This document shows positions 9,013-34,319 of a DNA stretch of 35,558 bases, piece by piece. The stretch is from Nitrospinota bacterium (lineage in GTDB: Bacteria; Nitrospirota; Nitrospiria; Nitrospirales; UBA8639). Under the pieces are notes generated by a model. It was not told where the DNA came from, ran no database searches, and saw nothing but the letters and a program-made list of their open reading frames with translations. Both the position numbers and the translations under genes were made by a program. The DNA is taken from NCBI GenBank assembly GCA_022572725.1, contig JACZVJ010000020.1, forward strand, positions 1-35,558. Direction: 5' to 3'. Position 1 is the stretch's first letter. Every line of letters starts with the position of its first letter.

Positions 9013-10312
9013 GGTACAAACCGGTAAGATGGTTTACAGAATAAACCGGGCACATGGTTTACCCTGTCTCGGCAAGGAGGGTCTTGCCGATGCCATGGAA
9101 GGAAACCAGTGCGATGGACCAACGTGTTCAACTGATTGGTGATTGGTTGAGTGGGGAGTACACCAAACGTGAGCTGTGTCAGATGTACGAGATCAGTCGG
9201 CCGACGGCGGACAAATGGATGGCGCGGTATCGTGCCCGCGGGGCACCCGGGCTGGAGGAACTGTCGCGTGCGCCTCATTGCCACCCGAATCAGACCGCGG
9301 AGGAGCTGCGCGTGCTGATCGTGGCGGGGAAGCTGAAGCATCAGAAATGGGGGCCCAAGAAAGTGCTGGACCTGTTGCGTCGAGAGCAGCCGCACGTGGC
9401 CTGGCCTGCCGACTCGACGGCGGGGGAGATTCTCAAGCGCGCGGGCTTGGTTCGTCCCCGCGTGCGACGGCGCCGGGTCGCGCCCTACACGGAACCATTT
9501 GGCGACTGTGCCGGCCCGAATCAGACGTGGAGTGCTGATTTCAAAGGGGACTTTCCGTTGGGCAACGGCCGGCGGTGCTATCCGCTGACCCTGAGCGACA
9601 ACTTCTCCCGGTATCTGCTGTTGTGCCAGGCCCTGGCGCGGCCCCGCTACGAGGCGGTGCGGCCGTGGATGGAGTGGGCGTTTCGGGAGTACGGGCTGCC
9701 CGCGGCGATCCGGACCGATAACGGAGCGCCGTTTGCGTCGCTCGCCGTCGGTGGGATCAGTCAGTTGTCGAAGTGGTGGATTCAGCTGGGAATCCGGCCC
9801 GAGCGGATTCGTCCGGGCAAGCCCGCGCAGAATGGGCGCCATGAACGGATGCATCGCACGTTGAAGGACGCGGTGCCTCCCCACGCCAATCTTCACGCGC
9901 AGCAACGCCACTATGATCCGTTTCGAGAGGAGTATAACTGGCAGCGGTCCCATGAGGCGCTGGGCAGAAAGACGCCAGGCAGTGTGTATGGTTCCTCGGA
10001 ACGCTCCTATCCGATCAAACTCCCACCGATCGAGTATGAGTTGGGAGTCACCGTGAGACAGGTACGTCACAACGGCGAGATTAAGTGGCGGGGTGAACGC
10101 ATTTACGTCTCGGAGGTCCTGGCGAAAGAGCCGCTGGGACTCACGCCCATTGATAATGATACGTGGGAACTGCGGTACAGTTTTCATGTGCTCGGTGTCT
10201 TGGATCAACGCACCAACACGATCACGCCCGCGCAAGGCTGGCATGGCGCTAACTTAAAAAAAGGGTAAACCTTGTCCCCGGTCTAACATGTAAACCATGT
10301 CCGGCTTGCACC
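9013..10312 (+). mobile_element. IS481-family insertion sequence
   Basis: The element is about 1300 bases, bounded by roughly 50-bp imperfect inverted repeats. The left end (9013-9064) begins GGTACAAACCGG and ends ATGGTTTACCC. The right end (10263-10312), read on the opposite strand, begins GGTGCAAGCCGG and ends AAGGTTTACCC. It holds a single intact transposase gene. No target-site duplication is obvious. It has separated the outer arms of a palindrome: ACCCCTCACC at 8968-8977 and GGTGAGGGGT at 10318-10327. Confidence 0.85.
9090..10268 (+). CDS. IS481-family DDE transposase
   Basis: This 392-residue transposase has an N-terminal helix-turn-helix (YTKRELCQMYEISRPTADKW, then YRARGAPGLEELSRAPH). 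A central linker includes KHQKWGPKKVLDLLRREQP. The retroviral-type catalytic core has the first Asp in QTWSADFKGDF, the second in AIRTDNGAPF and the Glu in GRHERMHRTLKDAVPP. A C-terminal beta-rich segment follows (VRHNGEIKWRGERIYVSE). I prefer ATG 9090 (MPWKET) because AAGGAGG (9074-9080) lies 9 bases upstream and the family usually begins this way; an upstream ATG at 9054 falls in the inverted repeat. No frameshift or internal stop is seen, so it may be active. Confidence 0.93.
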   Translation: MPWKETSAMDQRVQLIGDWLSGEYTKRELCQMYEISRPTADKWMARYRARGAPGLEELSRAPHCHPNQTAEELRVLIVAGKLKHQKWGPKKVLDLLRREQPHVAWPADSTAGEILKRAGLVRPRVRRRRVAPYTEPFGDCAGPNQTWSADFKGDFPLGNGRRCYPLTLSDNFSRYLLLCQALARPRYEAVRPWMEWAFREYGLPAAIRTDNGAPFASLAVGGISQLSKWWIQLGIRPERIRPGKPAQNGRHERMHRTLKDAVPPHANLHAQQRHYDPFREEYNWQRSHEALGRKTPGSVYGSSERSYPIKLPPIEYELGVTVRQVRHNGEIKWRGERIYVSEVLAKEPLGLTPIDNDTWELRYSFHVLGVLDQRTNTITPAQGWHGANLKKG

Positions 10313-29253: not shown

Positions 29254-29601
29254 TCAACTAGGGCCGGGATTTTCTGCCGCAATGGCTTCCTCGATGGTGT
29301 CGTAACTGGGAATCAGTGTAGGCATCGAAGCCATATCCAGAATTAATCGAACCTCAGGCTGTGGGTGAACCAGGCTAATCTTTCCGCCATGCTGTTTGAA
29401 TTTCTGGTGGGAGATGGCGAGAAGACCAAGCGCTGCACTATCCACTAAAGGAACACCCGCCAGATTCAAGATGAGATGAGGGGTGCCGGCCTCATAAGCC
29501 TGCTCAATGGCGCTTTTCACCTCTTGCTTAGCAGCGGCGTCAAATCGTCCGGAAAGATCTAGGACTATGGCACTGTTAATGGCGCGTGTTGTCACCGGCA
29601 T
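29254..29601 (-). CDS. STAS-domain protein (anti-sigma factor antagonist type)
   Basis: This 115-residue single-domain STAS protein begins AINSAIVLDLSGRFDAAAKQ, continues HLILNLAGVPLVDSAALGLL and ends with NPGPS. The Ser in VDSAALG matches the phosphorylated Ser of SpoIIAA-like proteins, so it could be controlled by a kinase of the anti-sigma type. No partner kinase or phosphatase is encoded nearby. A paralogue lies at 32067-32405; both contain a PQP-x-VR segment. The two flank the PEP-CTERM gene on the opposite strand. Confidence 0.88.
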   Translation of the reverse strand: MPVTTRAINSAIVLDLSGRFDAAAKQEVKSAIEQAYEAGTPHLILNLAGVPLVDSAALGLLAISHQKFKQHGGKISLVHPQPEVRLILDMASMPTLIPSYDTIEEAIAAENPGPS

Positions 29602-29978: not shown

Positions 29979-29994
29979 TGGCATTACTCTTGCT
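29979..29994 (+). promoter_or_regulatory. Sigma-54 promoter of the PEP-CTERM gene
   Basis: TGGCATTACTCTTGCT at 29979-29994 fits the sigma-54 pattern TGGCAC-N5-TTGCW, with GG at 29980-29981 and GC at 29992-29993 and exactly ten bases between. Transcription would start near 30005, about 72 bases before the ATG. PEP-CTERM genes are known to be controlled by the PrsK/PrsR-RpoN system in other bacteria, which supports the assignment. Confidence 0.75.
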
Positions 29995-30301
29995 GCATAT
30001 GCACGCAAGAGAAGAGGGCGGCCTCGAGGACGAAGCGCAGTCTTAAGTAAACTTTCAAAAAAGGAGGGTGTGTAAAATGAGTAACAGAAACTTCAAAGAA
30101 AAATTACAAACGATACGAAAGGGGACTATTCTCCCCGTTGTAACCGGCTTATGCCTTCTTATTGGAATCTCTAATGCCCATGCAATTAGCAATGGGGGAT
30201 TTGAGGTAGGGACGTTTGGTTCTTGGGATACTATTGGTGTCACGAGCATTGAAACCGCAGCCCTGGGAACTGGACCAACGGAAGGCACCTATCAAGCCTT
30301 A

Positions 30302-31341
30302 TTATTGAGAATCGCTTAATATAGTGACATCATCAAAGAGATCGGCTTGCTTCCAAAACGCACGAACCAGCCTCGGCCGACGCCGCATGCGCCGCAAGGC
30401 TTGCCGGGCATGGTGGCTTAATTCTCCCACTGTCTGGGGGCACAGGTTGGCCAACGCATGATGTTTCCAGTACCCCCACAGATATTCCACTGGGTTGAGT
30501 TCCGGCGCATAAGCCGGCAGAAACTCTACCTGCAGCCGTCCGTGTTGATCCTCCACAAACTCCTGCACCAATCGGCTTCGGTGGGCCCGGAGGCCATCCC
30601 AGATCACCAAGACCTTCCCGGAGAGATGGCGCAGCAGATGCGTGAGGAACTCCACCACCTGCGGACTGCGAATGGTGCTCGGAAACAGCCGAAAATAGAA
30701 GTTCCACCAGGTTACCCCTGCCATCGCCGAGAGCGTGTGCCAATTGAAGTGAAATTGCAGCACCGGGGTCTGCCCCCGCGGGGCCCACGTCCGCACGCGA
30801 TGCGGCCGTTCGCTCAGCCCGCTTTCGTCGACGAAGACGATGGTTTGTCCCTGCTGTTGGGCTTTTTTTTAAGCGCGGGCCACCGCTGGCGTTTCCACTG
30901 GCGAATGGCACCTTCATCACGTTCCAGCGCTCGTCCTGTTGGCCGCTGGCAACTCCACCCAATCTGACGGAGCACCCGCCACACATGCCCCGGGTGGTAG
31001 TGGATGCCCCACTCCTGTGCAATGACTCGGGCGACCCGCGGCAAGGTCCATAAGTTGGTCGGAAACCCAAACGCATCCGGCCCGCGTTTGAGCAGTTGGC
31101 CAAGCCGTCGCAACTCCGCCGGCGCCAACTGGGGTTTCCGCCCGGCTCGCTTCGCCCGTTTGAGGCCGGCCCGCCCCTCGGTCCGCAGTTGTCGATGCCA
31201 GCGGTTGACGGACTGCCGATGGACGCCCACCTGGCGGGCGACTTCCGCTTCACTCAGGTCCTGGCGGAGCAACTGGGCAGCCCGCATGCGCCGCTGCTCC
31301 AAGGCCACAAAATCGCGTTTCACTCCGGCTGGATTTCCCAT
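30302..31341 (-). CDS. IS630-family transposase, expressed through a probable -1 frameshift
   Basis: The upstream frame (from ATG 31341, MGNPAGVKRDF) encodes two helix-turn-helix-type segments (LSEAEVARQVGVHRQSVNRW and RVARVIAQEWGIHYHPGHVW). It ends at 30814 after RWPALKKKPNS. The downstream frame reads KKAQQQGQTIVFVDESGLSE, then GKVLVIWDGLRAHRS and FLPAYAPELNPVEYLWGYWK, which carry the DDE residues. The frames are joined at A-AAA-AAG (30868-30862 on the minus strand), a classical -1 slippery heptamer. The fused product has about 340 residues, the family size. The stop TAA at 30302-30304 lies outside the element and is made by the target TA. The frames could instead reflect a decay mutation in a homopolymer. 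Confidence 0.85.
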
Positions 31342-31396
31342 ACCGGGCACTCTATCACAGCCACCTGAAAATGTCACTATATTTTACGATATTCAA
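30305..31396 (-). mobile_element. IS630-family insertion sequence with TA target duplication
   Basis: The element is 1092 bases. Its ends are imperfect inverted repeats of about 29 bases: the left end begins TTGAGAATCG and includes TATAGTGACAT; the right end, read on the opposite strand, begins TTGAATATCG and includes TATAGTGACAT. TA at 30303-30304 and at 31397-31398 is the duplicated target, as expected for IS630. Removing the element and one TA restores the host gene frame. Confidence 0.92.
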
Positions 31397-31958
31397 TAAG
31401 TAATGACGGTGGTAGTGCTAGCCAGAGTGCCCTAGAATCGTTTTTGGGCTTACCAAGTGGGGCCTTGGACACTTTGGTGACCACTCCTTCATCGAGCGGG
31501 GCGACAGAGGGTTCCGCCATCAAGCAGACTTTCTCAGGGACAGCGGGAGATATCCTCTCGTTTGATTGGAATTTCCTCACAGATGATGGCCCCCCCGGTG
31601 GTGAAAGCTCGACGTATAACGATTCCGCCTTTTACACCCTGAATGGTCAGGCATTTCTCCTGGCGGATACCTTGGGGGTATTCAGCCCCTCCTCCACCGG
31701 ATACATAGCGGAAACAGGGTTCAGTTCGGTATCGATCACTTTGCCTGGAACAGGAATATATACCCTGGGCTTTGGGGTCGTGGACGTCGGAGATTTGGCC
31801 TTTGATTCTGCCCTGTTGGTGGACAATGTAGTTACGACAAATCCCGAGCCGTCTACGATGGTTCTCTTGGGGACGGGGCTGGCGGGTTTTTTAGCCTGGC
31901 GGTGGAAGAAGGATCCGAGTATGAAGGGGTGAGCCACCCTAAAAGTGCAAACCAGGAA

Positions 31959-32000
31959 ACGAGCTCCGCACCCATCGGTGTGGGGCTCGTTTTTTTTAAT
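31959..32000 (+). terminator. Rho-independent terminator after the PEP-CTERM gene
   Basis: ACGAGC...GCACC at 31959-31972 pairs with GGTGT...GCTCGT at 31977-31990 around a CATC loop, followed by eight or more T residues. It lies 26 bases after the stop of the PEP-CTERM gene and before the convergent STAS gene, for which it could also act in reverse. Confidence 0.85.
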
Positions 32001-32066: not shown

Positions 32067-32405
32067 TCAAGCTGCGGCTTGGGCCTCGTCCTCGGTCTGA
32101 CAAATTTGAACCAGGCTGGGAAAATCGGCCCGCTCCAACTCTACTCGAACCTGAGGCTGAGGATTCACTATGCTGGTGCGTCCTCCCTTCCTTCTTAAGT
32201 GATGAGCGACCAGAAAGATCATTCCAAGGCCGAAACGGTCAACGGCTGGAACGTGGGTCAGATCCAAAATGATGTGCAAGGATTGAGCCTCTTTTTCTCG
32301 GTCAATGACTGTTTGGAACTCCCTCCTCGCTGAGTTGTCAAACTCCCCATACAGGACAACCACCCTGGTGTCCTTCACCATCCGTTCTGAGATGTGCATG
32401 CCCAT
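32067..32405 (-). CDS. STAS-domain protein lacking the phosphorylatable serine
   Basis: This 112-residue single-domain STAS protein has TRVVVLYGEFDNSARREFQT near the N terminus, then HIILDLTHVPAVDRFGLGMI, then VNPQPQVRVELERADFPSL. Where most SpoIIAA-like proteins have DSSG or DSAG, this one has DRFG, so the usual Ser is replaced. Phosphorylation control by a SpoIIAB-like kinase is therefore unlikely. The protein may be a constitutive partner or act in another complex. It resembles the STAS protein at 29254-29601. ATG 32405 or 32399 may be the start. Confidence 0.87.
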   Translation of the reverse strand: MGMHISERMVKDTRVVVLYGEFDNSARREFQTVIDREKEAQSLHIILDLTHVPAVDRFGLGMIFLVAHHLRRKGGRTSIVNPQPQVRVELERADFPSLVQICQTEDEAQAAA

Positions 32406-33138: not shown

Positions 33139-33214
33139 GCGCCCGTAGCTCAATGGATAGAGCATCAGACTACGGATCTGGCGGTTGGGGGTTCGACTCC
33201 CTCCGGGCGCGCCA
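33139..33214 (+). tRNA. tRNA-Arg (anticodon ACG)
   Basis: All four arms fold. The acceptor stem GCGCCCG (33139-33145) pairs perfectly with CGGGCGC (33204-33210). The anticodon arm is TCAGA-CTACGGA-TCTGG with ACG at its centre. The T arm is GGGGG-TTCGACT-CCCTC. G33211 is the discriminator and CCA is encoded at 33212-33214. ACG in bacteria is normally edited to ICG and reads CGU/CGC/CGA Arg codons. The 3' half is the attachment site of the integrated element. Confidence 0.97.
33165..33214. other. Attachment site (tRNA end) of an integrated element
   Basis: The integrase gene ends within the tRNA: its last codons, PEGVEPPTARSVV and TGA, are the antisense of tRNA positions 27-76. This arrangement is typical of tyrosine-integrase elements that insert at a tRNA 3' end and carry the missing piece themselves. 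The second copy of the site was not found in the window, so the other end must lie beyond 35558. Confidence 0.8.
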
Positions 33215-34319
33215 ACATATCAAGCACTTGCGACGATTCGCTCCTTCCCTCCCCTAAGGCACTCCCAGTTTTACTCCCAGTTCCAATCCCAAGATGGCTC
33301 AAACTTCCTTGTTGAATGGCCTCCTTAATATGGCTAGGTGCGAGGTGTGCATACTTGAGAGTCGTCCGAATATCTCGGTGCCCCAAAATCTCCTTAACGG
33401 TGGGGAGGGGCACACCAGCCATGACCAAACGGGAAGCCGTGGTGTGCCGGAGGGTATGCCAGGAGGCATTGGCAATGCCCGCCTGCCGAAGTGCCGGTTC
33501 AAAGGCCCGGCGGAGAAATGCCCGGCTATCCATAGGGGAGAGGGGATTTCTAACTCCCGGAAAGACCCACGGTGATCGAAGAAAAGATTCCAGGGAACGA
33601 AGTATGCGGATCGCTTCTTCGGTAAGGGGGACGTGCCGTGTGCGACCGCCCTTGGGCAAGGGGATGGTCAGAGTGGTGGACTCGAAGGATATTTGCTCCC
33701 AGCGTAAATGGAATTGCTCGTTTTGCCGAAGTCCCGTTTCCACAGCAAGAGCCACTAATTTCCAATTCTCGGAATCCATCAGATTGTGAAGATGAATCAA
33801 TTCTTTATCAGTGAAAAACCGAATTCGTTCCGCTTCAGGGAAGAATTTCACTCCGCTAACAGGATTCCGGCTTAACTTCTCATCGTCAACGGCCATCATG
33901 AGGACGTGCCGAAGAAAGGCAAAATAGCGATTGATGGTCGAGGGCTTTATCTTGCCCTTTGCCTTTAATCTGGCTTGTACCTGTCGGCAATCCTCAATAG
34001 TGATTTGTGTCAGGAGCCTCTTGCCCCATAAATGGGTCCAGAACCGGCCATACCGTCGCTCGTTACCAATGCCGATGTTGGTAGATCCCTCCAGGTAGCG
34101 GTTGGTCCATGCCTGTAAGGTGATGTCTTTGGGTTTATTGAATTTCTCTGGAAAGTATTTCCCTTCTCGAATCTCGGCTTTAAGCCTCCCATAGAGCACC
34201 TTCGCCTGAGTCTTATTCTCCGCCCGATACCATTTTTCCCTACCATTCACGAAGAGCCGCACCCACCATTTTCCTTCCTTAAAAAGGATCCCTCGGTCTT
34301 TGCCCCCTTTCCGTGCCAT
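33165..34319 (-). CDS. Tyrosine-recombinase integrase
   Basis: This 384-residue integrase would move the element in and out of the tRNA-Arg gene. An N-terminal AP2-like arm-binding region is followed by a SAM-like core-binding domain (about 70-165). The catalytic domain has Arg in AVETGLRQNEQFHLRW, the H-x-x-R box in WHTLRHTTASRL and the Tyr in LGHRDIRTTLKYAH. All catalytic motifs are present. ATG 34319 overlaps the stop of the upstream zinc-finger gene (TAATG), with AAGGA nearby. The last 17 residues are encoded by the antisense of the tRNA. It is probably functional. Confidence 0.94.
   Translation of the reverse strand: MARKGGKDRGILFKEGKWWVRLFVNGREKWYRAENKTQAKVLYGRLKAEIREGKYFPEKFNKPKDITLQAWTNRYLEGSTNIGIGNERRYGRFWTHLWGKRLLTQITIEDCRQVQARLKAKGKIKPSTINRYFAFLRHVLMMAVDDEKLSRNPVSGVKFFPEAERIRFFTDKELIHLHNLMDSENWKLVALAVETGLRQNEQFHLRWEQISFESTTLTIPLPKGGRTRHVPLTEEAIRILRSLESFLRSPWVFPGVRNPLSPMDSRAFLRRAFEPALRQAGIANASWHTLRHTTASRLVMAGVPLPTVKEILGHRDIRTTLKYAHLAPSHIKEAIQQGSLSHLGIGTGSKTGSALGEGRSESSQVLDMLARPEGVEPPTARSVV

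Follow-up and report, generated by a model that had tools for sequence, protein, structure and literature searches.

The window, the whole 35,558-nucleotide stretch analysed here, contains a PEP-CTERM gene on the forward strand that is split in two by an insertion sequence. Sequence reading and a frame check placed the 5' part of the gene (residues 1-76, with the signal peptide) at 30077-30304 and the 3' part (residues 77-253, with the sorting signal; PF07589, 4.2e-7) at 31399-31932. Between them lies an IS630-family insertion sequence of 1,092 bp on the reverse strand (30305-31396, TTGAG...TTCAA), recognized by sequence reading and profile matches. The element is bounded by a target duplication, TA, with its left copy at 30303-30304 and its right copy at 31397-31398 (neither is assigned a strand). 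Direct reading and a script located both copies, and by the same means the coordinates given in a preliminary description of this insertion proved correct to the base. Insertion at TA with duplication of the TA is characteristic of the IS630 family, as are short terminal inverted repeats; here they are about 26 bp long, and the left repeat (30305-30330, unstranded) and its partner on the right (31371-31396, unstranded) are identical at 21 of 26 positions and carry a motif common to related elements. The G+C content of the element is 60.8% vs 53.1% in its surroundings, which is consistent with arrival from outside.

In its occupied state the gene, which has a good ribosome-binding site (AAAAAAGGAGG) directly 5' of its start, stops after 80 residues (...TYQALLLRIA, then a stop codon). 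When we omitted the element and one TA by script, the gene read in frame through 253 residues, with TYQALL joined to SNDGGS and followed by ...PEPSTMVLLGTGLAGFLAWRWKK..., exactly as the preliminary description had proposed. The restored protein has both of the features claimed for it: a signal-peptide-like N-terminus, which we judged by eye in the joined frame, and a PEP-CTERM sorting signal at the C-terminus, where PF07589 scored 30.2 bits against a cut-off of 20.7. Because the correct frame stays open for about 177 codons downstream of the element, up to a PEP-CTERM signal that exceeds the Pfam cut-off, chance is no realistic explanation for the continuity. Uninterrupted homologues are present in the same family, two in one genome (L003 and L020) and one in another (L004), with identities of about 38-49% depending on the alignment. 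A second inactivating change, which had been named beforehand as counting against the preliminary description, was looked for in the gene and not found. Insertion with a target duplication makes restoration of the frame automatic, and thus the restoration confirms the insertion and is not a separate finding. We conclude that the restored frame shows just the absence of a second lesion in the gene.

The sequence around the gene suggests how it would be expressed. A pattern scan identified a sigma54 (-24/-12) type promoter-like site, TGGCATTACTCTTGCT, at 29979-29994 on the forward strand. The site is a good match to the pattern, lies about 82 nt 5' of the start codon, and may serve as the promoter of the gene. 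Across both strands of the window the scan gave three matches vs about one expected, and this is the only match just upstream of the interrupted gene. Similar sigma54-like sites precede some other PEP-CTERM genes in the same genome and family, for example at L070, L073 and L026. Directly 3' of the gene, on the same strand, is an intrinsic-terminator-like hairpin of 19 pairs followed by a T run (31954-31995), and the gene is likely to have a single-gene transcript. The position of this hairpin right after the gene means that the damage is probably limited to one gene; we considered knock-on effects on downstream genes and found them unlikely for the same reason. Elsewhere in the genome, two exosortases matched above cut-off (C69 and C179), and a PrsR-type regulator, also above its cut-off, is on the same contig as exosortase C69. 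With two exosortases, PrsR and a sigma54-like promoter, the interrupted gene belongs to an apparently complete exosortase system. A search of the same genome with the interrupted protein found six further places with a PEP-CTERM-like C-terminus. One of the six (L072; G000 C108, 47929-48060) is apparently a truncated remnant of about 68 codons and adjoins a SEL1-repeat gene.

Several neighbouring features of the window were recorded. Two STAS-domain (anti-sigma-antagonist-like) genes, 37% identical to each other, lie on either side of the PEP-CTERM gene and are encoded on the other strand (29254-29601 and 32067-32405). A tyrosine integrase gene on the minus strand (33139-34319) terminates within or beside a tRNA-Arg gene (33139-33214). 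Such an arrangement typically marks the boundary of an integrated element, and the element would extend to the end of the window with HTH_17 and CGNR-like genes. At 9054-10268 there is a second transposase or integrase-core gene, of IS481/rve type and with one open frame, and at 965-1716 a gene pair encoding a Phd/YefM antitoxin and a PIN-domain toxin.

The transposase of the IS630-family element is encoded in two reading frames on the minus strand. The first, orfA (30814-31341), contains the helix-turn-helix part (HTH_33, 5.3e-20; positions 1-138 of the NF033545 profile) and starts at an ATG at 31341, with a GTG at 31377 also possible. The second, orfB (30302-30865), contains the DDE catalytic part (DDE_3, 1.7e-22). 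The IS630 profile NF033545 scored 101.3 and 95.8 bits on the two halves, for which the cut-off of 100 applies to the whole protein; in a whole-genome scan the transposase halves scored 118.5 and 100.1 bits. The break between the frames falls at CTT AAA AAA AAG (A8G), and within this run is a slippery heptamer, A AAA AAG (30868-30862), found in the sequence and in relatives, at which a -1 frameshift would join orfA to orfB. A -1 slip at the heptamer is predicted to give a fused transposase of 346 residues, in which the DDE triad is D172, D249 and E286, with 36 residues between D249 and E286. The target TA, together with the base after it, completes the stop codon of orfB (CAA followed by TAA, 30302-30308), and the relative L045 ends likewise, with CAG followed by TAG. 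Because the target TA contributes to the stop, the C-terminus of the transposase can depend on the insertion site.

We searched for relatives of the element in one-genome-per-species contigs and obtained 24 loci, mostly in Acidobacteria metagenome-assembled genomes (MAGs). The nearest are Acidobacteria MAG sequences with about 69% protein identity, and the search of these contigs returned no close named match; we conclude that the element is an unnamed member of the known IS630 family. Relatives end in the same terminal motif, for instance ATTGA..TCGCATAATATAGTGACA, and TA usually flanks them. Twenty relatives had usable coverage of the break point. The same -1 break at the A-run, in an AAAAAAG or AAAAAAC context, was present in 17 of them, and the other three have one open frame. 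These related elements document an IS630 clade with a conserved A-run frameshift site. Conservation of the break indicates that it is most likely programmed and not a mutation, and that synthesis of the transposase most likely relies on a programmed -1 frameshift at AAAAAAG. Members of the IS630 family are reported to use frameshifting (PMC5009743). The element is probably intact and able to move, as judged from its sequence.

The element is present in a single copy in its own genome, a draft of 221 contigs. No further copies were found in this genome or in 48 other genomes of the family. A sample of the phylum yielded only partial, diverged matches to the element, the best being 73% over 393 nt, and a plasmid collection yielded only weak, partial IS630 matches. 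The exact duplication and the intact ends fit a recent event, as does the absence of further damage. A recent insertion is plausible, with the limit that neither a 2-bp duplication nor a single copy carries a clock and that the comparison covered one genome of the genus.

The two-frame transposase could also be explained by a disabling mutation, with the element fixed in place and slowly decaying, and the single copy in the genome would agree with such a history. The break, however, is located at a canonical slippery site and recurs in the great majority of relatives, and there is no damage to the catalytic residues, to the inverted repeats or to the target duplication. We dropped the notion of a dead transposase, which had been drawn from the two frames, once the relatives showed the same break, and we consider a decaying remnant unlikely. 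A draft assembly also raises the question of whether the element was wrongly joined into the gene during contig building. Against such an artefact are the perfect TA duplication, the inverted repeats located exactly at both junctions, the continuity of the frame across the site and the lack of a second genomic copy that could cause a false join, so that we give this explanation hardly any weight at all.

The preliminary description had further proposed that excision would revert the gene and that the insertion may act as an on/off switch for a surface protein. Such a switch would require the element to leave precisely and to return to the same TA often enough to vary the surface protein in the population. 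The absence of a second lesion, the restoration of the frame by one TA and a transposase that is probably functional are compatible with a switch, and precise excision of IS5 that reverses its effect on expression has been reported in E. coli (PMC8944449). Because the target duplication guarantees a restored frame on removal of the insertion sequence, that restoration is by itself no sign of a switch. The known chemistry of excision in this group also argues against one, since the IS630/Tc1-mariner enzymes that have been characterised cleave 2 nt within the element and so leave a footprint of about 4 nt on rejoining. The transposase of ISY100 makes its cuts precisely at the 3' ends of its element and, at the 5' ends, 2 nt further in; the rejoined donor is TATATA, with four extra bases (PMC2170065). 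We computed that an equivalent 4-nt footprint in the PEP-CTERM gene, whether its middle bases are TT or AA, would bring a stop after 78 residues, a prediction that rests on ISY100, a distant member of the family. A 6-nt footprint would give a 255-residue reading frame, and exact loss gives 253. A search of the genome for the end-joining protein Ku gave no match, which makes the sister chromosome, with its copy of the element, the more likely template for repair of a break. The gene would probably not be restored by cut-and-paste excision, and exact reversion is expected to be rare, occurring by slippage between the 2-bp TA repeats or by recombination with an empty allele. In addition, TA is a common target, which makes return to the same site unexpected, and the element is both single-copy and absent from the other family genomes. 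Among the titles listed in a literature search on PEP-CTERM with transposons or phase variation there was no precedent for an insertion-sequence switch. Neither proposal was upheld by these results, and we regard a reversible switch as very improbable.

Taken together, we conclude with high confidence that this is an ordinary IS630-family insertion at TA that causes plain loss of function of an exosortase-substrate (PEP-CTERM) gene and is not a reversible switch, since cut-and-paste excision in this family is expected to leave a frame-breaking footprint. The sequence itself shows where the element begins and ends, its TA duplication and inverted repeats, the two halves of its transposase and the absence of any other lesion from the host gene. 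The element inserted at a TA dinucleotide and split the PEP-CTERM gene, and we propose that its transposase is produced by -1 frameshifting at AAAAAAG, so that the element is probably still mobile. The gene would be transcribed from the sigma54-type promoter under PrsR-like control and, in its interrupted form, would yield an exported 80-residue stub without a sorting signal. The loss is perhaps tolerated, given several other PEP-CTERM genes in the genome. As it stands, a single insertion-sequence knock-out in a draft genome is of little importance.

Both the gene and the element resemble systems described previously. RpoN-dependent PEP-CTERM genes have been shown experimentally in other organisms, and pepA of Aquincola tertiaricarbonis encodes a PEP-CTERM/exosortase substrate under RpoN control (PMC9850573). 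The gene described here shares with pepA a signal peptide, a C-terminal PEP sorting signal, a -24/-12 promoter-like site, and PrsR and an exosortase in the genome, but it encodes another protein and is interrupted by an insertion sequence. The element itself is like ISY100 of Synechocystis, an IS630 element of the Tc1/mariner superfamily, in its TA target, 2-bp duplication, short inverted repeats, length of about 1.1 kb and transposase with helix-turn-helix and DDE parts. ISY100, however, encodes its transposase in a single frame of 282 residues, whereas here a -1 slip would connect the two frames of the transposase. In that respect the element resembles frameshifting insertion sequences, both those of the IS3 type, which use an A AAA AAG heptamer, and members of IS630 (PMC5009743): orfA is DNA-binding, orfB is catalytic and in the -1 frame, and the heptamer is A-rich. 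Compared with those elements, the sequence here fits ribosomal frameshifting and transcriptional slippage alike.
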